Below, piece by piece: positions 1 through 62,593 of a stretch of 64,000 nt of DNA. Position numbers and translations under genes: made by a program. The DNA lies in the NCBI GenBank assembly GCA_017506865.1, contig JAFCMP010000086.1:124001-188000 (forward strand). The letters are read 5' to 3'. Origin of the DNA: Tribonema minus (taxonomy: Eukaryota; Sar; Xanthophyceae; Tribonematales; Tribonemataceae). The notes under the pieces are model-generated. The model worked only from the letters and a program-made list of their open reading frames with translations, was not told the origin of the DNA and did no database searches. Within the stretch, counting starts at the first letter, position 1; each line of letters begins with the position of its first letter.

Positions 1-3000
1 GGTGCTCAACAAAACATGGGCAAAACTGCACCAAGTGAGATGCTTGCAAAATGACCAGCAGCTGTTGTGATCCAGCACACAGATGTGTGCGCGCGTGTAC
101 TGTACTCAGTATGCATACTCTGCGGTGGTGCCGTGCGCTCACTACAAAAAATTGTTGCAGTTGGGCTAGGGTGGTGATTTTGTGACCCATGTCAAGAAAC
201 GGTGATCTTGTGACCCATGGTAAGAAACGCAATCACCAAATAGCGTTGAGCGGTGCCACATTGGTGCATCAAAAGATGTGCCGTACGCCGTAAACTTCAC
301 AAGAAAAGTATATACCTCTCCAGGGCATACCACTACACAGGCCTACACCGCTGCATGCAATGACCACAATTAGTGGAAGTTTGTCACATTAGCTCAAACC
401 TCAGAAGTATGTATCCATCACATGCATTCGCGCGTGCATGCACATTTGCCAGCATCTCCCTGGCCTTATTGGTAGTCTTGTCACCCGCCTCGTGTCCACT
501 TTGCCTGAGCAATGAGTCCCCGTGTGGTCTCTAAGCGGTGCACTAACAGATGCACTTCACTGAAGTATGACACTTTGTGTGTATATGTATCATACTTTGT
601 AATTCCTACATGTGTATCCCACACGCGTGCGCACCTGCCGCATTCGCCAGTATCTCCCTGGCCTTGTTTGCGTGCCCCCGCCTCATCTCCAGCTGTGCCT
701 GAGCGATGTGCACCTTGACATTGCCCTCGTCAAGCGCCTGCGCAGCCGCAAGCAGCGTCTCCGCTTGCTCCAGATCGCCGGTCTGTTTTGTGCAACACGA
801 CATCAGATAATGTCAGCATGCTGAACGCCAATGCCATGCGCAAGGTTAGCGTAATACGTGCCAAGCTGACACTTCAAGCAGCATGCAGCTGTGCGCAGGT
901 GCTTGTACTACCACTGCCATGTGCAGGTTCTAGCACGTAGCAAGCGTGCAGGCGCACAAAAGGTCGCTGTGCCTTTACTTTTGGTGTCGTCGGCATGTCG
1001 TCCAGGCTCATTCAGCATTGAGGTTTGAGGTTTGATGTTCAAAGTTGAACATCCAAAGCCAGGACCAACAGCTCAGCTGTGAGAAGATCGCCAGTGTGAC
1101 TATTGCGCTGGGTATACAGTGTACACATCAACAGCCCTGTGCCACTCATATAGTGCAAATTACCCCCTCTCGTCAATATCATTGGTACATGCATCCCGTT
1201 CAATTACCATTTGCGCAGCGCCCAGCAAGTACTCAAACGATGATGCTCTGTGTAACCCTAGCAGTGTGTGGTTGAGATAGGTGTATATGTATTCTGGTGT
1301 GTTCACCTGTTCTCGTGTGTTCACCTGCTCTGTGTAACCCTAGCAGTGTGTGACTAGGCGTACGTATACTTGTATATTAACCTGCTCTGTGCAGTAGCGT
1401 GTGACTAGGGTAGTACGTATACTGGTAAGTTGACCTGCTTTGTGTAAGTAGCGTGTGACTAGGGTAAGCATACTCATACTGGTATTTCACCTGCTCTTCT
1501 ATCCGCGCCCAAGCCATGTACACGTGGCATTTGTCCTCGCACAGGTCCGTGCCGCTCTTGAACACCTCGCGCGCCGTTTTCAAGTCCCCTGCGCACGCCT
1601 CCAACTCCCCCAGCGCCGTGCAGACCTGTTCAAGGTAGGTAGGTAGGTAGGTAGACAGAAAAGGCCACACCAGTGAAGGCAGTTGAGGTTGGGGAGTCAC
1701 ATGCGCAGTATGGCGATATGCGCACTGCATGCGTGCCTAGGGTTAGGGCAAGCCTGAGCAAACATGACACACAAGGCTGACTTTAGCCATGTATGCCTGG
1801 TCACAATCTCCCAGCAGCATCCCGATCATGAACTTCAACACAGAGTCAGCACACCAAGCGCTGCAGTGCTGACGTTCAACGACTAAAGCCCTTGCGCATT
1901 TCTCTGACACCTTATTGACACCTTATCAGGCGAACTTGTGTTCAAAGGAGGCGTGAGTACAGTAGAGCACGCGTGTACGTATGTATTGCATTTACTGCGT
2001 ACTCAACCATCCGCAAGACAATGATGCCAGCACACCTCACCCTTGTGGATGATCCGAGTGTTAGTGAAGGTTAGCACCTGCATCTACATCACATCTGTAT
2101 AGTCTGTGTATTTTATGCGTGGCATGCACAAGCTCCAGATGAAGTTGCCTTACACAGAATTGTATTCTGAAGAGGCACTGCTAAGCAACGGGTTGCAAGG
2201 TTCAGTCGACCCATTGCAAACTTGTCACGCTCATGCGCTATACAGGCAGATGTGTAGTTGTACAGGTATGCACCACATCTTAAGTATGCACTCCTGCAGA
2301 AAAAGAAATGAACGCACCGCTGGCAGTCGAATCATGACGCAATGTACTTTTATCAACTCTCGCTCAGGGCGCGAAAAAGCCCAGATGAATGGCACCTGAC
2401 TTGAAGCTTGCTGTACGGAACTACATGTCGTGTGACAGTCTGAAAGTGTCTCAACGACAACCTCTGTACTACATACGCACACCTCTACTTCAACTTCAGA
2501 AAAAGTGTTTTGAAGTTTAATTTCTCGACGTCCTGTGAGCACTTCCTACCTGTGCCTGCGGCGCCTGCGCGAATGCTGCTCGGAACAGCTCTCTGGCGCG
2601 CTGCTTATTATCTTCCCTCTGCTCCATTAGTCCCCACGCATGGCACACGTATGCATTGCCAGGCTCCACCTGAGGGTCACACAATGAAATGAGCATAAGA
2701 TATGTGTGTAACTGCCATGATTATGTGCTGCTGTCTTGCACATCTTAAAAAGGTAAATTCAGAAAGAACATGGCGGTTTCTGCAAAGTTGAAGTTGACAA
2801 CATTTCCTGCAACGATATGCATCGTTGCATCTACTGATATGCAATAACAACCTCGTTATTGGCGGTTGCACCAGCTAGTGATCATATTTGCATGCACGCA
2901 GCACAGCGGCTCGTGTTACTGCACAGCAGCCAACAGTCGCTAGGACCTCTGATGTAAACCTACCAAGCATCTCATGACAGTAAAACTGCTCACCTGCAAC

Positions 3001-7108: not shown

Positions 7109-7264
7109 GGGGGGGGGGGGGGGGGGGAGGGGGAAGGGGGGCATCAGAATCCCCCTACTCCCGCGAGCCCCTCTGCTTTTCGCATGCTGGCCTCGTACCT
7201 GCGGTTTACAACGGGGGGGGCAGTGGGGGGGACGGGGGGGGCAGTGGGGGGGGCGGGGGGGGGT
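7109..7264 (+). repeat. G-rich low-complexity tracts
   Basis: A long run of G at about 7109-7127 is followed by GGGGGAAGGGGGG. A second block of GGGG(A/C)GTGGGGGG units lies at 7214-7264. These are strong G-quadruplex candidates on the plus strand in non-coding sequence. Confidence 0.8.
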
Positions 7265-7909: not shown

Positions 7910-7936
7910 TTTAGGGTTAGGGTTAGGGTTAGGGTG
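7910..7936 (+). repeat. Interstitial telomere-like TTAGGG array
   Basis: Four consecutive TTAGGG units lie in intergenic sequence downstream of IFT27. They show this genome carries the TTAGGG motif at internal sites. Confidence 0.9.
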
Positions 7937-8405: not shown

Positions 8406-8449
8406 AGTACATCTCCGTACAACGAGTACGTCTCATTGAATCATATGGA

Positions 8450-8816: not shown

Positions 8817-11800
8817 TCACATTGTGTGGAACTGCTGAGCCATGTGTTGAAAGGGCGCCTCCACACCCGAGCTCATGGCCGCAGACACCTCAAAGTAGGC
8901 CAGCCCGTTCTCCTGCGCGAACCGCGCCCCTTCCTGAGCATCCACCACCGCCCTTGACCCCTCCCTCAGATCCGCCTAAATGCCGAGAAGACAATGAAGT
9001 GGTGGTCTTGGCTAAGACACCCGGCTTTCCGCCGACCGCTGGGTGATTCCTCACATCATGGCAACTCATACATGCAGCATACGTACGGCCACAAGTGTGG
9101 TCTCATTGACGTGACTGTTACTGTGGCAGACTATGTAGTCTCAGGTGCAGGCCATGTAGTCTGCATTGGTGATTTTGTTGCAAACATTCAGCAGCATGCC
9201 CGGTGAATGTAACCCGACGCAATAGTCAAGGCTGAGTTGCGTGCACATTGTGCATGACGTTGGGGAACAGCGCATGTATGGAGTCATTGGGTACGTGTGT
9301 ATGACATTGAAGTACAGCGCAAACGAAGTTCACAGGGTACATCTGGACAGCCGGCCTCTCTTGGGACCTCGCTTGGGCCTTCACAACACACGCCCTTGAT
9401 CAACACACGCCCTTTAGAACAGCAGACGGTGGTTCTGTGCTTCCAGAATGCACTTGTTGGCACCCATGGCGCCGCAAGCCACGCTGCACAGTACCTATGC
9501 TACACGCCGGCCCCATACAGTCGGCTTCTGGTGGGGCTTTCATCATCACACGCCTTTAAGTAGGCGGTGCTCCCGGCATCCACAACGCACTTATTAGTGC
9601 CAATAACGCCGCCAGAAATGCCACACAGTACCTACATGGCTCGCTGCCCATTAGCACCCCGGCATCGGTGCCGCGGTGGGCCGCGTAGCTACAAATCACT
9701 TATTAGCGCCCATTGCGCCGCCAGAAATGTTACGAAGTACCTACATACCTTGCTGCCGATCAGTACCCCCGGCATCGGCGCCGCGGTGGGCCTTGTAGCG
9801 CGCACGCCCTGCAGCCACCTCCCGCACGACTGGAAGCTCTCACGGTTGCAGACGTCAAACACCACACACACAAAGGAGGCGTTGTCCCAGTGCACCGCGT
9901 TCAGGTCCAGCTGCGGAGGCAGCGGCAGCGCAAGCGTGGGGGGGGGGGGGGGCTGAGCCGTGCTGCGGTAGTGCGCTGATCGATGCTGCGGTATTTGCTG
10001 AGCAATGCTGTTGGTGGTGTGCTGAACGAACCTGCAGTGGTTGCTGAGCCGTGCTGCAGTAGTGCGCTGATCGATGCTGCAGTGGTGCGCTGATCAATGC
10101 TGCAGTTGCTGAGCCATGTTGTGGTTGCAACAGGCCAGCGAACGTGCCTGGGCAATGCAGCACTCGTGCGTTCTGGCTTTGATTCACCCTGATGTACTCT
10201 ACTCACATACTCATGTACAAGTGGACGTTTGTTCAGCAGGGCCCTGCGGCACTGCACCCTGCAAAGAGGTGACGGGTGCATGTATGTATGTGCACACCAG
10301 CATACCCATGCCTACCTACATAGCCCAGGACAAGGCTCGCTGCATGGAATCCTGGCAGCTGCCTGGAGTGTCGCGTGCTGCCATTGCAACGGCTAACACC
10401 CTCACACACCGCGACTTGCACAAGGCGTCTTACAAAGCGCCATGGACTCGCTCATGGCTTGTCAGCAAGTGCATCTGCCAGACTTAAGGTGGAGATGCTG
10501 TGATTACTCAAACTCCAGAGCAAGTGCAAGTTGCAAGCTTAAGGTAAGCCTTGCATGCCAGACCTCATTCCAGGCTCTCTGACTGCTGGTGTTGGATGGC
10601 GGTGACCAACAGGGCTTGACACACGTACAGTAGGGAGGAGTAGGGTTGGGGTTCGGGTAAGTAGGCATAGGATGTGCATGACGCGCAGCGCGACTGCCTG
10701 CTGGCGCTGCCGACGGCTCTGATGACGTGAGCACAGCACGGCATGTGATGCCACACCCCCTGCGATGCAAGTAGCACCATGCAGGTTTGAACCTGGCAAG
10801 GTAATTGGACCTCTGCTCAGTGCCTGGTGCAGCTTATAACGTCATGTGCCTATTGAGGCCGACCGGACCAACATTTGGAGTGTTTTTCTGGGCATTCCCA
10901 ATCAGGGCTGGTGGCACATTTTGTTTTGTCGACCTTATTGTTGCCTGGCCCGATTGTGGGCTCGTACGGTCAAGTGAGTGAACCGGAATGCTATAGCAGG
11001 CAAGCAGATGGCGAGTGCCATGCTCACGAGTGTCCTGATACTGGTGCACAGACTCTTTGCAGCCACACGATACGCCTCCCCCCCCCGTTAACAATCGTTT
11101 TCCTCCGTTCTCGACCAACTTCACCTGAAAGTTGAATTTTGTGCCGAAACGTGCAGTGAAGACACAATCGTGCTCATGGATGGTCATTGTGTGCTCATCT
11201 GGGGTGTTCCTGATGCTTTGTCCTAAATAGGCCTGGTCCTTTTTTTGTGTGATCCTAAAGCAGTGTAATGTTGGTCCGGTCGGCCTAAATAGGCACATGA
11301 CGGTAGGTGTGTGTTCTGCGCAAACTGGTTGAGCGAAACGACGGTGCATTATGCGCTGCGGGGCTGCAGAGGTCGCTTTTGTGACGATTTTGAGCACGTA
11401 TACCACCCAGACATGGGCGTGTGTTGTCAACGGGTTCAGTTTTTGCTTTGTGGCCCTTGTGCTGCAACAATGCTGCAACAATGAAAACAGATTGAATAAG
11501 CACCATGTGTGACAGCGTACCTTATTGAAGACTCCCTGCCCCGCACAGTCAAACAGAAACAGCTCCACGCAGCAGTTCACCTCCGGCAGCCGTATTTGTT
11601 TGACTGAAAAATCAACGTCCGTTGTCTGCGCATGTAGGAAGGTGCAGGTCCAGAGCTCCTTTACAAGCAAACCTAAAAAAGGTTGACGACGCACTGCAGC
11701 CTGTTCTGCATGTGTACATCACGTTGCATTGCTGTTGATGACCAGCTTGATGCAGCTGTGTCTTGCGTTAGTTGACAGCAGCAAAGTGAGATTGTAAACA

Positions 11801-18100: not shown

Positions 18101-19497
18101 ACGGCGCCCTTCAACTATCAGACGCACCCGAATCTCACTTCAACTATCAGACTCATACTAATATCCATCCACCATCACCTTGTGCACTACCCGTAACGCA
18201 GCGTCGGCTCGTGGTGCAATGTGGAGGACATGCGGCTGCGCGCGCTGGCGGCGCACTTCAACTATCAACTGTCAGACGCACCCTAACCGCACTTCAACCA
18301 ACAGATTCACCCTAATACTATCCACACCCATCACTATCACACGCGCAGCGTCGGCACGTGGTGCAACGCGGAGGACACGCGGCTGCGCGCGCTGACGGCG
18401 CACTTCCGTCAGTCCTGGGCCACCATTGCGCGCTTCATGCCCGGGCGCGGCCCCAAGCAGTGTCGCGAGCGCTTCAACAACGTCATTGACCCCGCCTCAC
18501 ACAAGCGCGCGCCCTGGAAGCCCGCGGAGGACGAGCTGCTCATGGCAGTGTGCGCGCAGACGGGTGAGCGCTGCCAATGCGCGCTTTGCTAGGGTTAGGG
18601 TTAGGGTTGGTACAAGCTCTCATGGCCGTGTGCGCGCAGACGGGTGAGCGCTGCCGCTGCGTGCTTTGCTAGGGTTACGGTTAGGGTTGGTACAAGCTCT
18701 CATGGCCGTGTGCGCGCAGACGGGTGAGCCCTGCTGCCGCTGCGCGCTTTGCTAGGGTTAGGGTTACAGTTGAGGTTTAGGAATAGGTTTAAAGGCTAAG
18801 GGTTGAGGGTAGGGATAGGGTTAGGCATGCGTTGTCTGCGCATCTGCGAAGAACTTGAAGAATTGTGTTCCTTTAAAACCAACAAGGTAGGGAAAGGGAT
18901 GTGGTTGAGAGGTTAGGTGCTACGTGGGGGCCGGGCTGACTAGCAGGGCCTGCTTTACTATAATGGGCGCATGGAGAGGCGAGCGCTGTTGCCCACCCTT
19001 GGAGGCTCGGCTGTAATCACATCTACTTCCTGATGACGGAAAAGCTGGCCTTGAACACTGGCTCTTGTTGCAAGCTATACCTCTGGTATGCCCTCTGCCA
19101 CTTCAGCAGCACCGATGCCAAAGGCCACTATCGAGCCATGTACTTATTGAAGGTCAAGCCTCTATTACACCCCCTCTCTATACACACACACACACATGCC
19201 AGCACCTCTCTCAACCTCTGTCATCGCCTCCTTTTGAACACGGCCATGCGTGCAGGCGGACGCTTTACAGACGCCGCCCCCGACCTCCCCGGCCACGGCT
19301 ACCTGGACATCAAGGCGCGCTACGAGCTGCTCTACAACGGCGGCAGCGGCGACGGCAGCTGCGCCGCCGGCAGCAGCGGCAGCAGCAGCGGCCATGATGA
19401 CAGCGGTCAGTCACAGGCAGCGCCCGCACGCAGTGCCGCCGCCAAACGCAAGGGCCGCAAGCGCGCCAGGGGGCCCGGCGCTGTCCCCGACTACTAG
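15120..19497 (+). CDS. Three-repeat Myb (R1R2R3-like) transcription factor
   Basis: Exons are 15120-16606, 16996-17460, 18349-18563 and 19256-19497, giving 802 residues with matching phases (2, 2, 1). The first exon is a roughly 495-residue Ser/Ala-rich region with poly-Ala, poly-Gly and an acidic patch (DVDEDDEDDEA), typical of an activation domain. Exon 2 begins with a Cys/His-rich segment (CEAQDC...HATCGH) followed by Myb repeat 1 (LWSADAGARL...WDKVAAAM...QCMLHW). Exon 3 holds repeat 2 (AEDTRLRALTAHF...SWATIARFMPGRGPKQCRERF) and the start of repeat 3 (APWKPAEDELL), completed in exon 4 (GRFTDAAPDLPGHGYLDIKARY). Repeat 3 is degenerate. The tail has a basic nuclear signal (KRKGRKRARG). The product is probably a DNA-binding nuclear protein; target genes are unknown. 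Confidence 0.88.
18040..18348 (+). repeat. Two echoes of Myb exon 3 acceptor end
   Basis: Copies starting at 18055 and 18202 repeat GCAG plus the first 50-60 bases of exon 3 (true start 18349). Each then diverges into CAACTATCAGACGCACCC-like sequence. Copy 1 replaces the Trp codon with CGG. Both keep the acceptor AG, so they are decoy 3' splice sites. Confidence 0.85.
18545..18745 (+). repeat. 80-bp tandem echoes of Myb exon 3 donor
   Basis: CTCATGGC(A/C)GTGTGCGCGCAGACG followed by the donor GGTGAGC occurs three times. The GT positions are 18564 (true), 18644 and 18724, an exact 80-bp period. Each unit is separated by GCTAGGGTTAGGGTTGGTAC-like telomere-related sequence. Copies are nearly identical, so the expansion is recent. 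Confidence 0.9.
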
Positions 19498-21811: not shown

Positions 21812-21815
21812 TCCG

Positions 21816-21903: not shown

Positions 21904-21907
21904 CACC

Positions 21908-47200: not shown

Positions 47201-50007
47201 AGCAAAGAAGGGCATCTTTCACTCTTATGGCAGGCGCCGACAGCCAAGACAGAAAAGAAGGACGTGGTAAACTTCAAGTTGAACTGGTAAATCGGAAGCT
47301 GAGACATCCGTCATTCCAACAGACACCGCAGCACCCTCTGACGCATGCGGCTGGCCTTGAGGCAGGGACAACGCTACCACAGGAACACATGGTAAACTTC
47401 AAGTTGAACTGGCAAATAAAGTTGGCGCGGCGGCAGTACAGTACCTGATACAGCAAAGTTCTGCTGGCTGTCCATGAGCGCCGAGATGAGTTGGAAGTCG
47501 GGCTCTACCAGCAGGCAGTTGGGCTTTCGCGACGTCTGCGCCTGCTGCTGAGGCGTGCTGCCTGCGTCACCGCTCAGCACCAGAGCGCGCTCGCTCACGA
47601 CCTTGGTGAAGATGTCCGTTGCCACGTCCGGCATGTGCTCCTGCACCGCCTGCAGTTGAAGTGAGTGCAGTAAAGGCCAGGGAGGGGGAGCCAATGACAT
47701 TGCACTTCAAGTTGAAGGTGACATGGTACTTCAAGTTGAAATTACAGGAAGGCGCATGGCGTGACCTGAGCACATGACACCTGAGAAAGGTGAGCCGCAG
47801 AATCAGCATGAAAGCGTGGCGCCCACCCCATGAGCAAGTACTTTGAATTATGCCTTGCCCACTGTGCTCACAAGTACAGTTGAAGTTTGGTGCGGCGGAG
47901 AGTCACTCACTTGTCTGAGGTTCATGTTTTCCTTTCGCAGCGCCAGCAGCTGCTCCTGCAGGCACTCCAGCATGAACTTCTTGCGCACCCGCGACCGCTT
48001 TGCGTGTTCGCGGTTTCGTTCCTGCACGAGTGCATGCACGCAGTGTGTGTCAGCTGGTGACTGGCGTGTGACTGAGAGGGTTTGTTACTCTGGCAGGTCT
48101 ACAATCAGGGTGTGAGTAAGGTATTATTACAGGACCGCATGCATATTTTGCGCACAACTAGATGATGACCCGCTTTGCGTGTTCACGGTTTTGTTCCTGC
48201 AAGAGTGCATGCACGCAGTGTGTATCAGCTGGTGGCAGGCTTGTGACTGAGAGGGTTTGTTGCTCTGGCAGATGTACAATCAGGGTGCCAGTATGTGCAC
48301 ATAAATATTACAGTAGTGGGACCCCATACAAAGTGTGTGCACAACTAGATGACGACACGCTTTGCGTGGTCGCGGTGTCATTCCTGCAAGAGTGCATTCA
48401 CACAGTTGGTGTCAGTCGGTGTAGGTCTTGTGGCTGGTACACTGGCAGATGACTGGCAGGTGGGGCTCAGATAGGGGGTTCAGTAGGCACAGTGACGCTT
48501 TGGAAGTGGGTACTACTAAGGCAGCGGGACCGCACGCATATGGTGTGCACAGCTAGACGACAGCCGAGCTGTTGGGTATGTGGCTACACACAGTGTCAGG
48601 GTCTTGCATAAGGCGCCACAAGTGTTGTGTTTGACGGCAGTATGCATATTGGCACTGCATAGCGGCTCGTGCAGGTCAGCATACTACAGCAGCAGTCGGC
48701 GAACATGCTCAGTCATGGGGACTTGGACAGGGCACCGCGGGTTTGTGTTTCGGGGCAGTATAGCAGCACTGCGTAGTGGCTCAACATGCTGGCGACTCGT
48801 GCCAGGCCAGCATACCACAGCAGCAGCCAGTCAATAAGCACAGTGAAGTGGTGACGTTCAGCAGATGTGCGCGTACGGTGCACTTTGTTTCACTTGCGGT
48901 TGCCTATGTTCGTGGGCACCAAGTAGCTGCATACTGAGGAATAGGTGTCATAGGGGTGCGCAAGGTCGCATTTGCAATGCTAGTGAGCCGCAAACTTCAA
49001 TCGGATCTGTTTCGCTGCTGCCTTGTCCTTACGTTAGCTGCAAACGTGAGTGAGCATGTGGGCGGTAAGCAGCTGCATACTTTGAAATACGTGTCATAGG
49101 GTGTGTAAGGTCGCATTTTCAATGCTAGCGAGCCACGGGCTTCGATCAGAACTGTTGCACTGCCTAGTTGTCCTCAGATTAGCTGCAAATGTGAGTGAGC
49201 AACTGTAGCTTTGACTGTCCAGGCGACGGCGGTGCCTTTGCAAAGCAAGACGCGGTCAAACAGCACCAAGTGCTGCGTCAATAATGCCATCGAAAGCCCA
49301 GCAAGTGCCTGAGTGTGTTGATGTATCCCCTCATCAGTGTTACATAGAACTATGAGTGTTGTCACGACGGAGTCACAAATGCTCTCACAAAAAGTGCACA
49401 ACTTCAAGTCCATCACTCACCCGTCTTTCTATCTTCTGCTGCTCCGATAGGTCCTTTCCGCTTTTGCCAATGCCACTGCTAAAGCTGTACATGTAAGGCG
49501 CTGACGTGCTCGCCTTTCGTTTCCGCTCCTCTGCTTCTATCTCACTGTGTGTTGCAACCACTGTCTGTTGCTGCGGCTGCTGCTGGTGTTGTCCACCGAA
49601 CACTGGCACCTGCGCAATTTCTTGCTTGACCAGTGCTGACAGCTCAGACATGTCCACATCCTCCACAGCTCCGTAATCGCCATCCATTGAGAACCCCACC
49701 GGATCACCCCCCGCTCCCACGTCCCCGAACTCCAGAAAGCAGTCTGTCGATGAGAAGAAGCAAGTGAAGCCGCAGGATGAGAGAGGTGAAGGCTGGACAC
49801 CTCGCCGACGCAGCAACCTCAGATTAGCTGGTCGAGGAGCATCGGAGGCACACAGGCCGTGAGTAGCAGCATGTTACACGCCTCGTCGGCAAATTGGCGG
49901 AGTCCCTCGTGCCTGGCTCACTCACCTGCGAAAATTTCGTCCAGGTTCACGTAGCTGCTGTTCTTGCCCGCTGCTCCAAACACCGGTGGCTGAAGATCAA
50001 ACTCCAT
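44203..50007 (-). CDS. Aureochrome blue-light receptor transcription factor (bZIP-LOV)
   Basis: Eight exons, all GT-AG: 50007-49926, 49743-49421, 48021-47911, 47649-47445, 46631-46555, 45712-45663, 45017-44891 and 44325-44203. They give 365 residues with matching phases. The N-terminus has a Gln-rich stretch. The basic region ERRERNREHAKRSRVRKKF (about 133-151) and leucine zipper run to about 172, with the NREHAKRSR core. The LOV domain starts near 240: SDPSLPDNPIVYASQGFLNL, then GRNCRFLQ with the photoactive Cys272, NYKADGSPFWNNFFISALRD, and VNFVGVQAEV at the end. In this family blue light forms an FMN-cysteinyl adduct and changes DNA binding to a TGACGT-type box. It acts in the nucleus, controlling growth, division or branching. 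The bZIP-then-LOV order is diagnostic. The subtype (1 to 4) cannot be fixed here. Confidence 0.97.
44500..44890 (-). repeat. Echoes of aureochrome exon 7 donor
   Basis: Copies near 44800-44832, 44655-44690 and, weaker, 44545-44580 repeat CATATCCGCGCTGCGCGACC(AG)AAT|GTGAGTCACT on the minus strand. The first two keep the donor. The nearest differs from the exon by a few bases only. Confidence 0.8.
45125..45235 (-). repeat. Echo of aureochrome exon 7 acceptor
   Basis: On the minus strand the block TTGATGATGATGCTCAACTGC-type plus CCGTCGGGGTGTGTCAGAGG (true at 45017-44970) recurs as a degenerate copy upstream at 45215-45143. It contains GATGATGCCCAACTGCCATA and GGCGTATCGGAGGGCCTCGG. Partial duplicates of the TAGGGC / CAGCCTAG spacer also lie at 45250-45350. 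Confidence 0.7.
48120..48420 (-). repeat. Echoes of aureochrome bZIP exon acceptor
   Basis: Two copies of the exon 3 start lie upstream at about 48165-48205 and 48352-48395, with GCAG or GCAGGAA and AACCG.GAACACGCAAAGCG. They keep the acceptor-like CTTGCAGGAA context but lose the frame after the basic-region core. They are 150-190 bp apart. Confidence 0.8.
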
Positions 50008-50792: not shown

Positions 50793-53700
50793 ATGTACAT
50801 AAGTATAGCACACGCAATGCAAGCACCGGATATGCTGCAAGTTGAAAGCGGGGCTATCCAGAAGGCACAGGTCTGCTGCAGAACTCTAAGATCATATGGC
50901 AAACAGCGTGTCCAGTGCTGCCGCAGGCGTCGCGGCAGACGACGTTGCATCGAGCGCCGTGCCTGCATGGCGCTGCTGCTTTGTCACCGCGCCAGCAGCA
51001 GCAGTGCCGCGACAGCTGCAGCTGCCGCTCCCATGCTGAGCTTCACCCAGCAGAGACAACAATGCCCAGTTGAAGATGCCTGGTCGTTGGCACTGGCGGA
51101 CACGACAGCTCTCACAATGGTGGAGCCGGGACAGATTGTTGGCCCCTACCTGCTGTCCCACCTGGTGGATGTGCTGGGCCGCAAATCTGTGCACCCAAAC
51201 ATGTGCCACGCCTTCCATCCGCCGGAGCTGGTCGCCCCTGATCATCGGCTGGAATCGACTGGGGCCCTGAGCTTACTGGATGATCGGAGGGATAGGCGAG
51301 AGGACTTCTATCGATTGGGCGGCCGCTTTGCGGGAGGCAGTCACGGGGAGGTGTGGCGGGCGCAACGTATCGACCCTTACACGGGCACATTTGAGGTACG
51401 CCATCGAGACCTTACTTGAACTTATAGTAAATAGAAGCGCTTCTAAGTTCATGCACGGCAATCGAGCATTGTGTGCTTTTTGTTGATTCTCGCTTAGGGC
51501 GCTTAAAGCCCACATGGTGGATTTCCAGCTTGCAAAGAATATACGTGTGTCTCGTGACACCTTGAAAGTGTCTCAATGCGCATTGCCGATTGCTCCTGAA
51601 TGACATCGCCAAAGTGTGTACTTTTGTGGCAGGACATTGACTTCTTGAGTAGCAAGCGCCATGTTGATCATCTGAGCGTTGTCACGCGCTGAGCAGGGAA
51701 ATCAATGACAAGCACGCCAACACCAGCAAACAGTTCAGCAAATACGAGCCAGTGTTGTTGCTTTGAGTACCGCTGACATGTAGCGCAGCCTGCATGTTGC
51801 TCACTCCCCATGCCCGGTTCAACTGTATGCCGCTCGTGTCATGCTAGGCTCATGTGCGTAAGTCGTGCTGACTGACGATGCCGCAGACGCAGATGCTCAC
51901 AGCACTTCTGAACTTAAAGTTACACTTCCACAAGCAAGAAACTCGCCCTGTTCGCAGCGCATCCCCGTCCCTTCTCTGTGCCCCTCCCCCCGCGCTACCT
52001 CTGCAACTTCCCAGCACCCCATGCCTGCTCTGTGCCCCTCCCCCGCGCTACACCATCGCAACTTCCCTGCAACTTCAAGCCAGGCTTCGTGCTGAAGCGC
52101 ATGCTGCTGGAGAAGGGCGCAGGCGTGCACGCAGCAGCGCTCAGAGAGGTGCACTTTGGCGAACTGCTGAGGGACCTCAATCAGCAGCGCCACTTTGCGC
52201 GCTACGTGGAGCACTTCTACCGCTACGGCGCGGGCATCAATGTGAGCTGCGCGCTGCCTCACACCGGGTATTTTGGGTATATATCAGCATGAGTATGTAT
52301 TTTGGGTATATATCAGCATGAGTATGTATGTATGCTTCATAAGGGGTAGAGGTGCTATGCAACGTGAGCTCAGTGCTGACTGATCAATCAATGTGAGCTG
52401 CATGCTGCCTCACACGGGGCATTGGGTATATCTGCATGAGTTGATGGCGTATGTATGAATTCCACATACGGGGTAGAGAATTTCAAAACGCGAACTCAAA
52501 ACGCGAACTCAGCGCTGACTCATCAGGTAATGGGTATACCAGCATCATGCCACAATGATGTAAGTATGTATGCTTCATACGGGGTAGCGGATACCGGCGT
52601 CAGTGGGATGCTGCCTCACACATGGTGTCTGAGAGCATACCATATGCAGCACGCTCGCTGCCAGTGCCAGGTGCGCCCCTATGGCTCCTCTGCCGGTGGT
52701 CATCGGGCACAGCAGTAGCCTAACCTGACCCTAGGGTTAGGGTTACCCGGAATGCCCCACATGTACTGTGTGGTGCTGTGAATGCTGCTGCACTCCCTAG
52801 TCGCCTTCATGGTCATTGTAGCAAGCTGAGAAGGCCCTGGGCTTAGTACTGATTCTCAAACCATCGTCATCAAACAGCCACACACACAGGCTGTCATTGA
52901 CAGCTTGCATGACTTGCATCGACGGGCACATCATGACTCAGCAGGACCCAATTTCAACTTTTGCTAAGCGGTGCTGTCATCAACCGCAACCGCAGGGCCA
53001 GGACGAGCTGCGACTGGTGTTCCAGAATGAGTGCGCTTTCCCCCTCATTACCCAACTTGAACTTGTGCTGAGCAATGAGTGATTGTCATCCGCGGCGCCG
53101 GGAACAGCTGTGGCTGGTGTTCCACGACGAGGGTGCCCCCCATCATTACCCAATTTGAACATACTTCACTTGAAGTATGCTGAGCATTGCTATCCTCAAC
53201 TGCAACCGCAGGGCCAGGACGAGCTGTGGCTGGTGCTCCACAACAATGGCGCCTATCAGTACCCAACTTCAACTTGTGCTGAGCATTGCTCCGTCAACCG
53301 CGACCGCAGGGCCAGGACGAGCTGTGGCTGGTGTTCCACGACGAGGGAGCGTCACTGCAGAAGTACCTCTACACGGAGCTGGTGACGCGCGACTTTGTGG
53401 TGCACGGGCAGAGCGACTTCTGGCGCACGCTGCGCCTCACGCGCGAGGGGCACGACACCATGCGCGACGTGCTGCGCCAGCTGCTGAGCGCTGTGGCAAC
53501 GCTGCACGACCTAGGCATCGTGCACAGGGACCTCAAGGTGAGGTTAGGACTCGGGGATAAGGGTTTGAGGTAGGATTAGGATTAGGGTTAGGGCTAGAGG
53601 CCAGGTTGATAATGGCATGCGCATGACCTGGATATCGTGCACAGGGACCTTAAGGTCAGGTTTATAGTGAGGGTTTGGGCTAGGTTAGGTTTAGGCTTAA

Positions 53701-56700
53701 GGTTAGGTTGATGATGGCGTGCGCACGACCTAGGCATCGTGCACAGGGACCTCAAGGTTAGGGTTAGGGTTCGGGTTAGGGTAGGGTTAGGGTAACAGTG
53801 AGGTTGAGTCAGGCGTTTCCACGACCTGGGCATCGTGCACAGGGAACCTCAAGGTGAGGTTAGGGTTACGGTTAGGATCACGGTTAGTGTTAGGTTGATA
53901 GTGGTTTGGGTTAGGGTTAGGGTTAGGATGATAATGGCGAGCGTGCGTGCGCGCGTGTGCGTGTGGCGACGCCTTCGCGGCTCAGCAGTTCATGAACATG
54001 TTCATGAACTCCATGAGCTCAGTTTCACCAAGGGCGGCTTGATAAGGAGCGACTTCATGAGAGCTGTCAGCGCATGCGTACATCAATATCTGCATGTGCA
54101 CGCTGTGCCTGCTGGCCACGTGCGGGTGTGCTGAGCAGCAACTTCAACTTTCATTTTGAAGTTGCACACACGTACACTGGGAAGGATATCTGCGCCTGGT
54201 CTGTTCTGTCGCCGCATCCACTATTGGTGGCTCTTTCATTGCCTGAACTCCCACAAATGAGAGCTTCCCATGCTGAATGCAGCGCTAGGGCAGCTGTTGC
54301 CTGCTTCCAAAGCTGGCATCACGGGCGGCACTCACCCCGCTAGATTACTGTTAGGAGTAGCATACATGAGTGATCATCTGACGTCCAGGGTTGCTGCTAA
54401 TTGATTTCAGCCATGTGCCACCCCAATGATGCAAGCTACATGCACACTCAGGGGATCTTCCTGCCCATATGGCCTTGACATGAGTCTCCATCATCCATCC
54501 AACTACACGTACCCAAGTCCCACGCCTTTTGGTGCCTTGCAAAGTGGGCAATAGAACCTATTCCCATGGCAACACCCCCCATTCATCTGCAGCCCTTGAA
54601 TCTGCCCCCCGTCTCACACTCTCTTCTTCTCACAACTTCCGCGGTGACGCTCGCAGCCCTCCAACCTCATCGTCACCCCGGAGCACCCCCAAAACCAGTC
54701 CAGCACGTCCAGCAGCACCAGCAGCAGCAGCGCTCCGCCGCTGCCCCCGCTCAGCCTCCGTGTCGCGGATTTCTCCTCCGCAATCGACGCGAGTGCCCTC
54801 GAGCAGGGCCTGTTTGGCCTCGAGGGGCCCACGCGACAGGAGCTGAGCATTGACTATGCGCCCCCTGAGGTGCTGTTTGACGCCGACGCTGCGCTGTCGT
54901 CTGCGCGCCCTGACGCGTACGACATGTGGTCCGTGGGCGTCATCTTTCTGGAGATGGTGCTGGGGACGCCGCAGGTGAGCGTGGCAGTGCTCAGAGTAGT
55001 TGCTGTTGAGGAGGTAGGCTTTGGGGTAACCCTAAGTATGTAGGTAGGTGGGCATGTGTGGTCACTGCGCGTCATATTTCTGGAGATGGTGCTGGGGATG
55101 CCGCAGGTGGGCGTGGCAGTGCTCAGTAATGTGTTTGATGAGTGGAAGGGTAGGTAGGTAGGTAGGTAGGTAGGCGGTAGGTAGTAGATTATCACCGACT
55201 TCGCTCAGAGCTGGTGCTGGGGAGGCTGCACGTGGGGGCGAGGCGCGTGCGTGGCAGCACGCAGTATATACTGGCTGTTGAGTAGCGTGGCAGTGTAGCG
55301 TGGCAGTGATCAGAAATACTGCTGTCGTCTGCGCGCCCTGACGCGTGTGACATGTGGTCCGTCGGCGTCACATTTCTGGAGATGGTGCTCGGGACGCCGC
55401 AGGTGGGCTGCGCGGCAGTGCTCAGAAATGTATTTGTTGAGTTGTTGGGTGGGTAGGTAGGCATGTGGTCCATGGGCATTGTCATACTTCTGGAGATGGT
55501 GCTCGGGACGCCGCAGGTGGGGGACCGGGGAGAGTACTCAGATGATGGTGTTTGGTAGGTAGGTAGGTATGTGGTAGTCATAATCATCATGACTTCGCTA
55601 GAAGCTGGTGCTGCTGCACGTGGGGCGCGGGCGCTGCGTGGCAGTGCTCAGATGATGGTGTGAGTAGGTAGGTAGGTAGGTTGTGCTGGGGACGGCGCAG
55701 GTGCATACAATGCGCCACGTCTACTTCTGCATGATACATGTGCTTCTGCATGATACATGTGCTTCTGCAAAAAGGTAGGTAGGTACTGACTTGCAATTGC
55801 TGAGCGTTTTGACGCGCTCTGGCAGTGCTCAGACGGTCTGGGAGGCATCAACATCCTGCGGTCTCTGGGGCATCATATTCGGAAGAGATTACACAGCGGA
55901 TGCCTAATCATGATTGTGCATGATGGTGAATGTCAAAGCAATTTTCACATGTTTCTGAAGATGTGCAGCAGGCATCATATTCGGAAGACATCTTACTGCG
56001 GATGCCTAATCAAAACATGGCTGATTCTATATCAGCAGTTTCTCAATGACAGAAATTTTGCAGCACGCGTCGTCGCTACAGGGAGCTATATGTGCACCTC
56101 CGTTGTCGTTGCTGCAGAGATGTGGATACAGTTGAACATGTACATCTTTATATATACGTGACGTTTAATCGGCTTTCGATGAAGTTTCAAGAGCGTATGC
56201 GAGTGATTGTGTCAGTGGCACCAGTGGCTGAGCAGTGCTACACACATCAACAGCAGCGCTCTACACATCATATGAGCAATACTGCTTCAAACCTGTTGCC
56301 TACTACTGAATATGTATAATGTTGATGGCAATGCTCAGCAATGCCCTCTCTGGTTGTCATGCCTCATCAATACCCACACGCCCCCGGGGGTTCATTGTTT
56401 TCATGGTACCTCTGGCCGCACGTGAACCAGCACAAATTCAGGAGATCGACAACGCGTTGCATGGCATATCAGAAACATTTTCAAGAAGTCAAGAATCCGC
56501 TCAGCTATGCCCCTCTTATTGTTGTGTAACGCATACACCTCCCCCCACCCCAAGTTTTCACTATGCCCCTCTTGTTGGCTGTGTACCTCATACATACATG
56601 CCCACCCACCCAGGTATTCACTATGCCCCTCTTTTGGTTGTGTGCCTCATACATGCATGCCCACCCAGGTATTCACAGTAGACCAGCGCACGCGTGCCAT

Positions 56701-59700
56701 GCTGGATAGGAAGTTGGGGGGTGCACGGGACCTACCTCGCGCATACCTGCTGGCGGCCATGGCGGACTTTTGTATATACGCACCAGCGCTCAGTCAGGCG
56801 CAGCAGAAGCACTGGCCCCTGGGGGACAGCCCTGTTATCAGCGAGGCGTGCGGAGAGGAGGAGCTTGCTAAGGTGAGCTTATACTTCAATGTTGAAGTAC
56901 ATAATGCTGAAAGTGATGGGTTGCGTACCTGCATGTATATGTGTTGGTATACATGCTTGGATGAATCGTCCAAATGTCTGCATCGCTGGCTAAGGAGGGT
57001 ACACCTCAAATTGAACCCTGTGATTAGCGAGGCGTGCGGGGAGGAGGAGCTGGCCAAGGTTAGCTCGCGTCAACATAAACTTCAAATTTGAATCAGGTAC
57101 ATTCCGATGTACTGTATTTCAAAAAGATGCGGTCATGCACCTGCTACATCAGGAGTGCGCGCTTTGAAAATCCATATCTGCAAAACGCTTTGTTGCCATG
57201 CATGCTATGCAGGAGGAGCCAAAGGAGTGTATACTTCAAAGTTGAAGTACTTGATACTTTGAACGAGATGGGTTGCGCACCTGTATTTACATACATTCAG
57301 TGTACTTCGAAGTATGTGCTTTGCAAACAGTCCAAATGTATGCATCGCTGGCCAAGGTGGTGAGCGTGTACTTCAAGTTGAAGTATATGTAGCTCATACG
57401 GTTATGATTGTGAAGCAGGCTACCATGTGATGCTGTCATAAATGCAAGCTTGCAAGCTGGAAGAGCAAAACATGGAGACAAGTTCCAGAGAGCAAGTTGA
57501 CCGGGGATGTCTTATTGGTCATATTATATATATTAGCGGAGAGAAGCAGGCTTGGGGCCTGGATGTCTCGGTACAGCAACGCTGTTGTCTGCTGCTAGCT
57601 GCTGCTGCAGCAGAGGTTCTGATGCTGTGCACACTATACTGATGTGCCCTTTGGCATGTGACCTGAGCTAATTGCACCTGATTCAGCTGGGGTCAAGTGC
57701 AGCTCTGCTTAGGACCTATTTCAGGTCTAAGATGACCAGCCAGGTCTAAGATGACCAGCCAGGTCTAACTATGACCTGGCCTGACTATGAGGTGCAGCAT
57801 AACTGGTCCTCAATCTATGTGCCTGCACTTTGTTTGTGCTAGGTAACGAGGGGTCAGGCAGCTTGTGTATAGTGATCCTTACTTTCTTCTTTTTTGCGAC
57901 GGCAGGCTCGCTACTAATCAGATGCTGATCTGTAGCTCTAGTGGGTGAGCCTGGTGCTTCGCCTTACCGTGCGCACAGACTTGTATGTCTGCAGTGAGGT
58001 GATGTAACCCTGGTCCTCAGAGGAATGTTGGGTGTCATGCAGCAGGCTGGCATGGCTACTGATGAGAGGTTAGGTTGGTCTCCTCATACATACCCATGTG
58101 AGGTTTGGCTTCGCGTCCTCGTACATACCGTATGGTGGGCCACTACCTCTGGCAGCAAAAGCGCAACAAAAATGTCTGAGACCGACGTGCACGCATGTGA
58201 GCGCTAGCCTTGATGCCTATCTGCACTCATTCGACAATGCGAGCGGTTCAGCGTGCCGCAATATGCAATTTCGCCATGCTGTCGTGACACAATCTTAGGG
58301 TTAGGGTCAGGGTTAACCCTAACCCTTAACCTAAGCATGCATGTCCGCCGTAGCGGCATGCGCACCCAGCTCATTGGTCGATCAAGATCCCCATGGGAAA
58401 AAGGGGGGAAATGCGCTTTTGTGCACGACGCAGTTTCATTGGGCGGCGCCTGCATAACCCTAACCCTAACCCTAACCTAACCCTAACCCTAACCCTAAAA
58501 TTCAGTGCATGATAACCGACATCATCATCCACGGTCTGCGGCCCGCCTGCTGCTGGACCTAAGGGTTTGGGGTGGTAGCCAATCTGACCCTTGCCCTAAT
58601 GTTAGCCCAACCCTCACCGATGTTCTACATGCCATTCCAGGGTGGTACCTTGACAACCGTACAACTGTACAGCACCCCATGCCCTTGCTGTCACGTTGCA
58701 TACATAATGGACCTTCATGCTTCCCCCAATCCCAATCCTCGTTGTCACGTTGCATGCTTGATTCAATTCTGAGGATCATGCGCATGTTTTAAATCGGGAC
58801 CACCGGTGCAAACACTCGCATACCTGATTTTTTTGAATTCTCCCAAACCATTCTTTGGCTTAGACAGCACCGGCCCAGGAGAAACACTCGCACACTTCGA
58901 TATTCCCGAAGCCTTTTGCTTGGCTTTGACAAACCTGGCGCATGATCACCCTTTAGCTTTGCCAGAACAACATTGTATGAGCTTGTTTTGTGACGTTTCG
59001 CCCCCTCTCAGGCCGTCCTTGCCCGCGACCATCTGGACATTGGCCTGCCCCCCCTTGGCCTGGACCTGCTGCGCCGCCTGCTGCAGTGGGACCCTCTGGA
59101 TCGCATCACCGCAGCACAGGTAAGGGTTAGAGATCAGGATTAGGATAAGGATTAGGGTTAGGGTTTGGATAAAAGTTAGAGGAACTGTGAGGGAATGGTA
59201 GAGGAACTGTGAGGGAATGGCGCAGAAAAGGTAAGCGTTAGGGTTATAACTAGGGTTAGAGGTTGTTGCGCCTGCTGCAGCTGGACCCTTTGGAGGGAGC
59301 GTATCGCTGCAGCACAGGTAAGGGTTAGAGTTAGGATTAGGATTAGGGTTAGGGTTAGAACTAAAGTTAGAGGTAGGGTGAGGTAATGGCGCAGAGAAGG
59401 TAAGCATGAGGGTTATAATTAGGGTTAGAGGTTGTTGCGCCTGCTGCAGTGGGACGCTCTGGAGCGTATCACCACAGCGCAGGTAAGGGTTGGGGGTAAG
59501 AGTTAGGGGGGTTAGGGTTAGGATTAGGGTCAGGGTTAGGGTTAGGTGATGGCGCAGAAAAGGTAATTGAGGGTAACGAACGGCACATGTATAGCTGATG
59601 GCGCTGCTGCGAAGTTGAAGCTGAGAAATGCTGCACGCAACAGTGAGATGTCATGTTTGCAATGCAACGATTGCATTAAACACAATGCACAAGAGTGATA

Positions 59701-62593
59701 CCAGTCCACGAAAAAAAAGGTTATTCCAAGTATGCAAAGCACTGCTCTTGACCGCTCTTGTGTTCATGTCTACAATGCACTGCTCTTGACCGCTTTTTCT
59801 CTTCAAGTTTGCAATGCACTGCTGTTGATCGCTTTAGTTTCTTCAAGTTTGCAATGCACTCATGACCGCCGTTGTCTCTTCAAATTTGCAAAGCACTGCT
59901 CTCGTCCGCTTCCGTTTTATGTTTGCAAATGCGTTACTGCCAACCCCTGTGGTTTTCGCCATCTCGCTTAGGGTTAGGGTTAGGGTTAGGGTTAGGGTGA
60001 GCTCGCCACCACTGCATCGCCGCCCGTGCTCTTGACCGCTTCCGCTGCTCTTGACCGCTTTTGTAATCATGTTTGTCATCTCACTCAAAGCCCTCCTGCA
60101 CCGCCGTGCGTACAGGTGCTGCGCCACGACCGCTTCAGTTTCATATTTGCAAATGCGGTCCGCTCGACCGCTTTGTTATTATGCTGGTCATCTCGTTTCA
60201 AGCTCGCCACATTGCAGTGATTATGTTTGTCATCTCGTTTCAAGCTCGCCACCACTGCACCGCCGCCCCCACAGGCGCTGCGCCACGACTACTTCATCTT
60301 CACCGCCGCGGACGCTCCGCACGTGCACCAGCAGCACCGCCAGCGGCGCGCGCACTCAACTTCAAGTTCAACTGAGACGCTCAGCCTGCTTGGCTCGCCC
60401 AACGCTCCACCCCTGGGGGGGTACCTCCCAGCGGGGGAGGGGGGCGGCGCTGCGAGAGAGGGCGAAACGGCGGCAGCGGCGGCGGCGGCGGCCCTGTTTG
60501 CGGCAGCATCGCCTGCTGCGGGAGCGCTGGCGGAGATTAGGAGGGGGGATGTGGGGGATTCGCACGTGCCGGACCCCCTGCAGGGGGCGCGCTACGTGTG
60601 CCCTGTGTGCGGGCGCTCATTTGACGTCTGGGAGAGCTGCCACCGGCACGTGGGGATGCGGCGCCACGGCCGCTTCTGCAGCTACAGCGCGGAGCACATG
60701 CCCACTTGCATCAGGTGCGAACTGCGCTGAGTGTGTGTGCTTGCGGGCCAAGGAGGTGTGTGTGTGTGTGGGAGGGGGGGGGGGTGGCTTGCAACTGTGG
60801 CAACTGAGAAATGTGTGCTCCAGGGGGGGGGGGGGGGGGGTTGTAGCAGTTGTAACAGGCCCTCTGTGTGCATTCTCCCCGCCCCTTATCGAAGACAAGC
60901 TTGTCCATGGTCCCTTGCAGGAATGATCATTGGTAAACGCGTGCTCTTGCCCTCAAAGCGTCGTGCTGGCATGCATTTGGCGCGCGTAAGTGTTGCGAAC
61001 TGAAAACTTTGCTGATGCACCAAATGCGAGCCTGCGCGTAGCTCGTCAAGCACGTAGTGGCACCGATTGCTCAGGCCTCTCACCTTCGCACCACCACGTA
61101 CCTACCCTAACCCTAACACTACCCCTAATCCTACCCCTAACCCTGACCCTGAACCCTGCAGCACCCACTCCATGCTGCCCATAGACAGCCACAGCGGGTG
61201 GTGCGACATAGTGGGGCGGCGCCGCACGATAGAGGACTACCACGCCCTCGTCTTCCACAAAGACTGGCGCTACTTCGGCGTGTTCGATGGCCACAACGGC
61301 AGCCGCGCAGCAAAGTTCGCCAGCCGCCAGCTCCACGCGAACCTGGAGCCGCTGCTGCGTGACGCCTTGGCAGTTACGGATGTAACCGCCAATTCTGAGA
61401 GCGGTGAAGGCGGCTGCGCGGCGACAGGCGGCGCGGCAAGTGCGCCAGGTGGCAGCGTCTGCAGCGCGACAAGTGGCGCCCCTGACACGAAGGAGGTCGC
61501 GACGCTGCGCGTTGGCAGCGACGCGATCGATGCACGCATCGAGCATGCGGTGTTGCTGGCCTTTCAGCAGACGCAGGACCAGTTCATGGAGTTGGAGGGA
61601 CAGAACGCATTTGTCTCGCGCCAGGGCAGCGGCACCACCGCCACCATCGCACTGACGCTTCCAGGGCGGCTGGTCGTGGCCAACGTCGGCGACTCGCGCG
61701 CCGTGCTCTGCTGCAGTGCTGGCAGCAGCGGCGGCGGTGTTGCAAGCGGCAGCAGCGGCAGCGCTGCAAGCGGCAGCAGTGCCAGCAGGAGTGATGGCAC
61801 CGGCAGCAGCAGCACTGATGGCGGCAGCGGGAGCTGCAGCACTGATGGCGGCAGCGGGAGCACCAGCAGCACTGCGGACGGCAGCAGCAGCGGCAGCGGC
61901 AGCAGCAGCACTGCTGATGGTAGCAGCAGCGGCGGCAGCAGCGCGGGCGGCAGCGGCAGCAGCAGTGGCAGCAGCAGCAGCAGCGCAGACGGCAGCAGCA
62001 GCAGTGGCGGCAGCAGCAGCGACGGCATCAGCGCAGACGGCAGCCGCAGCAGCGGCGGCAGCGCTGGCGGCGGCGGCAGCCGCAGCGGCAGCAGCAGTGG
62101 CGGCGGGCGCGGCGAGGCAGTGGTGGTGACGCTGGATCACACGCCGCGCGACGCCACGGAGGCAGCGCGCGTGACGGCGGCGGGCGGCGCCATCGAAATC
62201 GACACCAGCGGCGCGCCGCGCGTAGAGGGCGGTCTCGCGGTGACTCGCCGCATCGGCAGCGGCGCGGTCAACGGTCGAGCGCTGCTGTCATCGCGCCCAG
62301 ACGTACGCACGTACCGCTTTGACGATCCGGCGTTCGACTTCCGCTTCCTGATTGTGGCGTCGGATGGGCTGTGGGATGTTGTCAGCTCGGAGGATGCGGT
62401 TGCCATGGTGGAGGATGTGGTGGGGGGGGCGCAGCCGGGGGGGGAGAGGCCTGTGCACCTGGCTAGTTTTGGGGAGTATGGGGTGGCACAGGCGTGGCAG
62501 GTCGCTGCGACGGTGCTCACACACATGGCGTACGTGCAGGGCAGCACAGATAACATTGGCGTGTGCGTTGTCAGCCTGCAGTACGAGGCGTGA
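50793..62593 (+). CDS. Protein kinase - C2H2 zinc finger - PP2C phosphatase fusion
   Basis: Exons are 50793-51395, 52080-52241, 53310-53537, 54657-54974, 56669-56872, 59012-59119, 60275-60714 and 61162-62593, giving 1,164 residues in frame. The start is tentative (ATGs at 50793, 50817 and 50832 share the frame). The kinase domain spans about 172-550: glycine loop LGGRFAGGSHGEVW, VLK (Lys207), HRDLKPSN (Asp329), ADFSS in place of DFG (Asp369), APPE, DMWSVG, and the closing LLQWDPLDRITAAQALRHDYF. An Ala/Gly linker follows, then a single finger with C650, C653, H666 and H672. The PP2C domain from about 688 has VFDGH (Asp730), VVANVGDSRAVL, ASDGLWD and TDNIG, so the metal ligands are intact. It is split by a roughly 135-residue Ser/Gly repeat (61717-62125). 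Plants have comparable kinase-PP2C fusions. Substrate is unknown; self-regulated phospho-signalling is inference. Confidence 0.92.
51476..51570 (-). repeat. Dispersed repeat R1, copy I
   Basis: This diverged copy contains GATTCTCGCTTAGGGCGC, AAAGCCCACATG and ACCTTGAAAGTGTCTCAA. It lies in intron 1 of the kinase-phosphatase gene and resembles copy D more than G. Confidence 0.7.
52980..53309 (+). repeat. Echoes of kinase exon 3 acceptor
   Basis: Units beginning at 52996, about 53097, 53212 and the true exon at 53310 share CAACCGC.ACCGCAG followed by GGCCAGGACGAGCTGTGGCT. The copies at 52996 and 53212 keep a perfect acceptor. All copies diverge after about 40 coding bases and hit stops. Confidence 0.9.
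53505..53930 (+). repeat. Echoes of kinase exon 3 donor with TTAGGG repeats
   Basis: CGACCT(A/G)GGCATCGTGCACAG-GGACCTCAAG followed by a GT occurs at 53538 (true), 53655, 53758 and 53853. Each is separated by TTAGGG-rich sequence. The duplicated piece is exactly the catalytic-loop codons (GIVHRDLK). Confidence 0.92.
54930..55700 (+). repeat. Echoes of kinase exon 4 donor and GTAGGTAG minisatellite
   Basis: TTTCTGGAGATGGTGCTGGG-ACGCCGCAG|GTG recurs near 55080-55110, 55375-55405 and 55490-55520. Shorter pieces lie at 55205-55225 and 55605-55700. The unit at 55320 also duplicates TCGTCTGCGCGCCCTGACGC. Runs of GTAGGTAG (55150-55180, 55553-55570, 55664-55680) separate copies. Confidence 0.9.
56505..56668 (+). 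repeat. 57-63-bp echoes of kinase exon 5 acceptor
   Basis: Units of CTATGCCCCTCTT.TTG.TGTG..TCATACAT...CCCACCCAGGTATTCAC end at about 56553, 56613 and 56668. The last precedes the coding exon at 56669. The second unit keeps an intact CCCAG|GTATTCAC junction. Confidence 0.85.
57005..57066 (+). repeat. Near-intact second copy of kinase exon 5 end
   Basis: This copy encodes CCTGTGATTAGCGAGGCGTG onward, giving the same residues as the exon 5 end (PVISEACGEEELAK). It is followed by GTTAGC in place of GTGAGC. It lies about 190 bp downstream of the true donor. Confidence 0.85.
58295..58335. repeat. Head-to-head telomere-like palindrome
   Basis: TTAGGGTTAGGGTCAGGGTT is joined directly to AACCCTAACCCTTAACCTAA, so G-strand and C-strand repeats meet at GGGTTAACCC. 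It lies in intron 5 of the kinase-phosphatase gene. A second, single-orientation array follows at 58456-58498. Confidence 0.9.
58456..58498 (+). repeat. CCCTAA array
   Basis: About seven CCCTAA units in C-strand orientation, one shortened to CCTAA, lie in kinase intron 5 about 510 bp upstream of the exon 6 acceptor. Confidence 0.9.
59085..59500 (+). repeat. Echoes of kinase exon 6 donor
   Basis: CGCCTGCTGCAGTGGGACCC...CGCATCACCGCAGCACAG followed by GTAAGGGTTAG occurs at GT 59120 (true), 59318 and 59483. Each donor is preserved and runs straight into TTAGGG-like sequence. The copies contain small indels. Confidence 0.92.
59740..60274 (+). repeat. Minisatellite and echoes before kinase exon 7
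   Basis: About six units of CTCTTGACCGCTTT...CAAGTTTGCAATGCACTG lie at 59740-59945, then a TTAGGG run at 59966-59999. A true-looking echo of the exon 7 start follows at 60118 (TACAG|GTGCTGCGCCACGACC), with a duplicated TTTGTCATCTCGTTTCAAGC spacer. The actual exon begins at 60275. Confidence 0.8.
60771..60841 (+). repeat. Two poly-G runs in kinase-phosphatase intron 7
   Basis: G runs of about 11 and 18 bases lie 55-125 bp downstream of the exon 7 donor. They are non-coding. Confidence 0.8.
61100..61161 (+). promoter_or_regulatory. CCCTAA-derived branch-point/polypyrimidine tract before the PP2C exon
   Basis: The 60 bp before the acceptor at 61161 consist of CTACCCTAACCCTAACACTA and degenerate continuations ending CCCTGCAG. 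CTAAC/CTAAT matches the general branch-point consensus and the tract is pyrimidine-rich. A telomere-like repeat therefore appears to act as the 3' splice signal. Role inferred from position. Confidence 0.55.

Follow-up and report, generated by a model that had tools for sequence, protein, structure and literature searches.

The stretch of DNA studied here raises the question how copies of exon edges come to lie in the neighbouring introns, and why the coding copy should be the outermost one. The window, by which we mean the whole stretch of 64,000 bp, comprises positions 124001 to 188000 of contig C86 (assembly of 158 Mb in 554 contigs) and is nuclear DNA of Tribonema minus, a yellow-green alga. 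An earlier note, made from the letters of the window, had described short pieces spanning an exon edge and its splice site as being repeated within the adjoining introns. The presence of duplicated exon edges in introns is confirmed. In a self-comparison the window yields 72 local direct matches at most 3 kb apart, simple repeats included, and after masking and with a maximal distance of 1.5 kb there are 59 matches, which form 32 arrays. Locally duplicated positions make up 4.3% of the window, compared to none in a locally shuffled copy (40-bp window measure).

Gene models and array sites

Queries with predicted proteins recovered the deposited T. minus proteins of three genes, uroporphyrinogen decarboxylase (UROD, P0001), aspartate aminotransferase (AAT, P0121) and the metalloprotease of the window (P0242 and P0241). 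All of them are identical to the genome, their spliced alignments being gap-free with scores equal to the maximum minus the intron penalties. The exon maps obtained in this way are independent of our own gene finder and comprise 12 exons for UROD, 11 for AAT and 20 for the metalloprotease (26317-42201, plus strand), with 78 splice junctions in total. The strongest result presented here rests on these three genes, two of which, UROD and AAT, are neighbours on contig C368. A first piece of P0241 of only 5 bp was left out of most counts with the deposited models and was kept, together with one extra intron of 140 bp, in the analyses of codon positions, of exon parts versus flanks, of GT or AG retention and of intron length. 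The remaining gene models are predictions of our gene finder; they mistake some copies for exons, so that counts based on them are too high, and three "exons" of the kinase are probably such copies.

In the Myb gene (plus strand) the end of exon 16996-17460 is copied within the next intron (17375-17564), while exon 18349-18563 has acceptor-side copies of its start (18043-18406) and donor-side copies of its end (18531-18772), the latter built from an 80-bp unit and about 92% alike. The metalloprotease, on the same strand, carries a donor-side copy of exon 27021-27158 (27121-27305) and donor-side copies of exon 27754-27885 (27849-28182). On the acceptor side of this gene an array of about four 74-bp units precedes and enters exon 31562-31738 (31294-31596), and a copy each is found for the exons 35866-35940 (35667-35909) and 40982-41119 (40877-40995). 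In the aureochrome gene, which lies on the minus strand, donor-side copies belong to exon 44891-44983 (44552-44918) and acceptor-side copies to exon 47911-48021 (47992-48436).

The kinase gene (plus strand) has copies on both sides of exon 53310-53537: acceptor-side ones at 52942-53350, and at 53504-53899 donor-side ones of the exon end, which contains the HRDLK motif (by eye), with TTAGGG-like spacers. Further donor-side copies follow the end of exon 54657-54974 (54893-55685), the exon ending at 56872 (56830-57360) and exon 59012-59119 (59075-59574), and an acceptor-side array (56505-56676) reaches about 8 bp into an exon whose start near 56669 was set by eye. Another acceptor-side copy (60063-60302, plus strand) precedes exon 60275-60714. 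In the IFT27 region, for which the gene model is uncertain, a donor-side copy lies at junction 9748 (9564-9799, minus strand). Arrays are seen at junctions of Myb, metalloprotease, aureochrome, kinase and IFT27, genes for which the earlier note had reported them, as well as at position 60275; the exon numbers of the note cannot be matched one to one with the present models. The copy it reported for the HAT/TPR gene is correct insofar as an intronic array (1244-1497, minus strand) abuts exon 1491-1625, but this array scarcely enters the exon.

With our own models, 28 of the 59 matches of the window straddle a splice junction, against 10.2 ± 3.4 after circular shift; of the 92 junctions, 18 are covered (9.2 ± 3.0 after shift). 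Pooling four Tribonema stretches gives 107 straddling matches against 51.7 ± 9.3, and 71 of 421 junctions covered against 36.2 ± 6.3. Taken separately, the stretch of C368 has 61 straddling matches against 27.5, and no significant excess is found on C35 (18 against 13.9) or C48 (0 against 0.1). Exon-touching arrays are present on the contigs C86, C35 and C368. Regional differences are strong in general, as positions 200001-250000 of C48 contain only 2 local tandem matches per 50 kb and the first 50 kb examined on C368 contain 129.

In the deposited maps 32 of the 78 junctions are duplicated at a threshold of 19 of 24 identity (UROD 16/22, AAT 8/20, metalloprotease 8/36). Not all introns contain such copies: 20 of the 40 mapped introns are free of any, and two genes on C48 have no array in 11 introns.

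A stretch of 50 kb from contig C1 (G000, positions 50001-100000) was excluded from the counts because of its composition: it has 70% GC and a 4-mer correlation with the window of 0.20, compared to 0.95-0.97 for the other stretches. It represents a different organism or very different DNA within the same assembly. The motif ACTTCAAGT/ACTTGAAGT, which often forms inverted pairs (by eye), occurs 52 times in the window on both strands, e.g. at 56880-56910 and 57232-57255, and 0 times in this stretch of C1.

Copies of exon edges lie in the adjoining intron

Among the 79 exon-touching copies of the three mapped genes, 77 straddle an exon edge and 2 lie inside an exon. Junction-straddling matches number 54 in these genes, whereas the null means total 21. 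For all 77 straddling copies the partner lies in the intron adjoining that very edge, so that the coding copy is outermost, just as had been claimed. Their exon part measures 14-100 bp with a median of 43 bp and comprises at most 0.73 of the exon. Matches taking in a whole exon amount to 0 in UROD, AAT and metalloprotease, although about 7, summed over the three, are expected under the null. Copies of donor edges lie mostly in the first half of the intron (median relative position 0.25, n = 37), those of acceptor edges mostly in the second half (0.75, n = 40). The splice dinucleotide GT or AG is retained in 58 of 67 copies (donor 27/31, acceptor 31/36), in line with the earlier claim.

The orientation of the copies is uniform as well, with 164 direct and 2 inverted matches in the mapped genes. 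This agrees with what had been described and does not favour free template switching, which had been offered as one possible cause. On the intron side 23 of the 79 copies lose homology between -3 and +8 bp relative to the junction, 14 at 13-20 bp and 25 beyond 50 bp, whereby copies within one family often end alike.

Introners and other dispersed elements would be expected to have near-identical copies at many unrelated loci. The array copies of UROD and AAT have no match elsewhere in the 284 kb compared (0 of 17 and 0 of 2 non-local rows). Of the 65 non-local rows of the metalloprotease, 20 coincide with array copies, in part at least through a dispersed repeat (284 kb of 158 Mb compared). 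This repeat of about 125 bp, SINE-like in size, occurs in both orientations at 2340-2474, 29100-29213, 32509-32636 and 41626-41749, and it is contained in the metalloprotease array 41620-41898, which is free of exon sequence.

We consider it likely that this arrangement results from tandem duplication across exon edges, with selection sorting the copies and introns lengthening by accretion. Short stretches crossing an exon edge would be tandemly duplicated, repeatedly over time, and every new copy would fall in the adjoining intron. Under purifying selection the outermost copy would continue to serve as exon edge, and those duplications which hold a whole exon or lie within one would be eliminated. 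The inner copies, freed from coding, would decay almost neutrally, and introns would grow by accumulating relics of exon edges. The events themselves are presumably tandem duplications made by DNA repair or replication, the inner copies would be ignored by the spliceosome, and the coding copy would be outermost because selection holds it there. The statement that no named process gives this pattern went too far, since tandem duplication with purifying selection yields such an order of copies and tandem genomic duplication has been named as a way of gaining introns.

Exon edges as possible preferred sites of duplication

A different explanation would be that duplication is targeted to exon edges by a lesion linked to splicing, transcription or chromatin, with breakpoints on either side of the edge, one exonic and one intronic. 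We regard this as rather doubtful, but several counts point in its direction. Arrays containing exon sequence make up 28 of 35 in the mapped genes (UROD 14/16, AAT 9/12, metalloprotease 5/7), compared to 13.6 ± 2.7 for random placement. If duplication is simulated as uniform, with selection acting and the exon copy conserved, the mean fractions are only 0.15-0.23, or 0.29-0.44 with longer units, whereas the observed fraction is 0.80. Even the highest replicate of uniform duplication in already long introns reaches 0.55, which also counts against the plain form of the model that we prefer. The same is true for the 23 of 79 copies whose homology stops at the junction, a feature frequent enough to speak for targeting and not predicted by plain straddling duplication. 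At the match level, survivorship alone would lower the exon-touching copies to 0.53 of the placement null, while the real value is about 2 (79 against 40).

Conservative gene models lead to a mixed picture. At 22 of 24 identity the fraction of duplicated positions is 0.06-0.07 at the exon edge versus 0.023-0.042 in introns at distances above 10 bp from a junction, which favours targeting; at 19 of 24 identity, however, it is 0.12-0.13 versus 0.08-0.135 and there is no clear excess. From the raw metaplots, for which the listed transposon-like gene models and genes with less than three exons had been removed, a simple junction hotspot seemed to emerge. It became weaker after the exclusion of 39 predicted exons that were short or for the most part duplicated. 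The conservative models drop these 39 and, in addition, the transposon-like exons after the SMC1 gene; the filter also discards real exons, since the predicted ones at 35866 (window) and 48820 (C368) are part of deposited exons.

Further results argue against targeting. In the eight less certain models 17 of 31 arrays contain exon sequence against 14.1 ± 2.6 expected (p 0.18; aureochrome 2/8, the two C48 genes without any array), so that the excess at junctions is strong in UROD and AAT but not significant here. For this test arrays lying wholly within one exon were dropped, the SMC1 "exon" 67438-67509, a suspected copy, was retained, and the thiolase model is absent. Masking of the exons leaves 27 arrays, 10 of which touch an exon edge; this share is at the top of the simulated range but still within it (mean 0.22, range 0.08-0.37). 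Donors and acceptors are duplicated equally often in the deposited maps (16 of 39 each), and donors are only somewhat ahead in our own models (29 versus 19 of 129, and 26 versus 19 of 124 in a second count). This equality also does not favour R-loops restricted to the 5' splice site, a special case of the splice-site R-loops suggested before.

Simulated growth from introns of 60-80 bp by duplications of 120-150 bp gives mean fractions of 0.43-0.96 without any targeting, and the real value of 0.80 lies within this span. Such growth yields exon-bearing arrays, since no unit that exceeds the intron in length can avoid taking in an exon edge. The excess near exons would then be due mostly to the persistence of copies anchored in exons and to introns having grown from a shorter state. 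However, at least half of the intron sequence is without array, so that the introns may not have been short when the copies arose. Because the excess in the eight other models is not significant and the share with masked exons falls within the simulated range, local tandem duplication, selection and intron growth account for most of the pattern, with targeting to exon edges as a possible contribution. We are equally hesitant about a lineage-specific process, coupled to splicing or transcription, which would copy exon edges into the adjoining intron, ending at or near the junction, would have been a main source of intron sequence in some genes and would leave dated copies of the exon's past sequence. 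The earlier interpretation as a whole is partly supported.

Decay of the copies, intron length and related processes

Differences in the multi-copy families depend on the codon position. Changes found only in the exon are distributed 5:4:23 over positions 1, 2 and 3, those shared by some copies 9:4:33 and those private to one copy 64:56:95 (41 families with 109 copies, of which 28 families with 75 copies come from deposited models and 13 families from our own). The shared class suggests that the copies split off from the exon at different times, while it went on acquiring synonymous changes, and that they drifted afterwards. In this way they may serve as a layered record of earlier states of the exon. 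The private class is near drift; its mild third-position bias (p 0.0016) would be expected if the oldest copy keeps states which the exon has lost.

This bias could alternatively indicate that the inner copies are retained for a function, as alternative splice sites, decoys or alternative exon ends. The retained GT or AG would fit such a role, as would the higher identity of exon parts compared to flanks in one test out of two. On the other hand, frame-breaking gaps occur in 11 of 75 copies and an in-frame stop in 4 ungapped ones, the bias has the explanation just given, and the deposited UROD is colinear with a brown-algal relative of this protein (P0002) and has no extra copy (by eye). We therefore hold a function of the copies to be improbable.

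In the test between intronic copies with homology across the junction the exon part has an identity of 0.85 versus 0.815 for the intron part (deposited models), and 0.828 versus 0.826 in our own models. Copies chosen by the exon part alone show 0.859 in the exon part versus 0.783 in the flanks, with 0.72 for random sequence and the exon part ahead in 67 of 83 unequal pairs; flanks without recognisable homology are found in 29 of 69 exon-copy pairs and 44 of 94 copy-copy pairs selected in this way. A first estimate of stronger conservation of the exon part, 0.857 versus 0.726, was anchored on the exon copy and shrank with fixed junction-crossing windows. Exon parts exceeding their flanks suggest steps in addition to duplication and decay, and such steps could be recombination or gene conversion affecting the exon part.

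Introns with copies are longer, having a median of 1,292 bp (n = 20) versus 653 bp without (n = 20). Over the 40 introns length and copy number are correlated (Spearman 0.59, p 5e-5), partly between genes, as the genes differ in both. Exon-anchored copies make up 48% of the intron sequence in UROD, 25% in AAT and 6% in the metalloprotease, other arrays 2.7%, 6% and 1.7%, respectively. The origin of intron sequence is an old question for which there are few direct traces, and in UROD about half of it consists of recognisably exon-edge-anchored arrays. Furthermore, these arrays are natural tests of splice-site choice, as an exon end and its splice signal are repeated in a row with only the outermost one coding.

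DNA repair can yield direct tandem duplications of short segments, to which the present arrays bear a likeness; to our knowledge such duplications have not been linked to exon edges. In tandem exon duplication, which gives rise to mutually exclusive exons, whole exons with both splice sites are duplicated. Exon sequence is repeated within a gene there as it is here, but no whole-exon copy was found in the three mapped genes. A survey of the open-licence literature by titles and the openings of abstracts brought up no description of exon-edge arrays.

Among the named processes, tandem genomic duplication, by which introns are gained, comes closest (Rogers 1989, as reviewed in PMC3443670). As outlined in that review, exon sequence with splice signals is tandemly duplicated and the extra copy is spliced around; the present arrays likewise consist of exon-derived copies that lie in tandem, in direct orientation, and include splice signals. 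In the process outlined there, however, a new intron is made from an exon, whereas here an existing junction is spanned and introns become longer. Tandem duplication thus seems to lengthen introns instead of creating them. That the introns themselves arose from tandem duplication of an exonic AGGT segment would agree with exon-derived tandem copies in introns, but we judge it very unlikely: the copies span junctions that already existed, 0 of 40 introns begin like the exon that follows and 0 of 40 end like the exon that precedes (control 9/200), although old cases may have decayed in this test.

New introns of Daphnia contain internal direct repeats of 4-17 bp attributed to staggered double-strand breaks, and 4-12 bp shared with exons (PMC4202315). 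According to the account given there, these introns resemble the present ones in gaining length and direct repeats through break repair, with some repeats copying the adjacent exon end. Their repeats are, however, 4-17 bp long and commoner in new introns, whereas the exon parts here measure 14-100 bp, with a median of 43 bp, and form multi-copy arrays; our search covered repeats of at least about 20 bp.

Repeats are prone to misassembly and a single assembly was examined, but exon edges and copies are 65-98% identical, the exon branch shows a coding-like pattern and three contigs carry exon-touching arrays, which makes an assembly artefact highly improbable.

Short interstitial TTAGGG runs were considered as repair scars at exon edges and rejected, as 61 intragenic runs have a median distance of 382 bp to the edge versus 305 bp for random intron points and are thus not closer. 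There are 29 such runs in the window (e.g. 53540-53930, 58455-58498 and 59968-59998), 26 per 80 kb on C368, 10 per 90 kb on C35 and 2 per 50 kb on C48, with 38 sense and 23 antisense to genes. Within 60 bp of a duplicate lie 14 of 29 runs in the window (21% of the window is so placed), 0 of 10 on C35 (9%) and, for the first 50 kb examined on C368, 5 of 20 (35%). Long reverse-transcriptase-like ORFs were seen by eye on C35 (L031-L032) and C48, and an AAT intron (C368, 473446-473918) contains a fragment about 68% alike.
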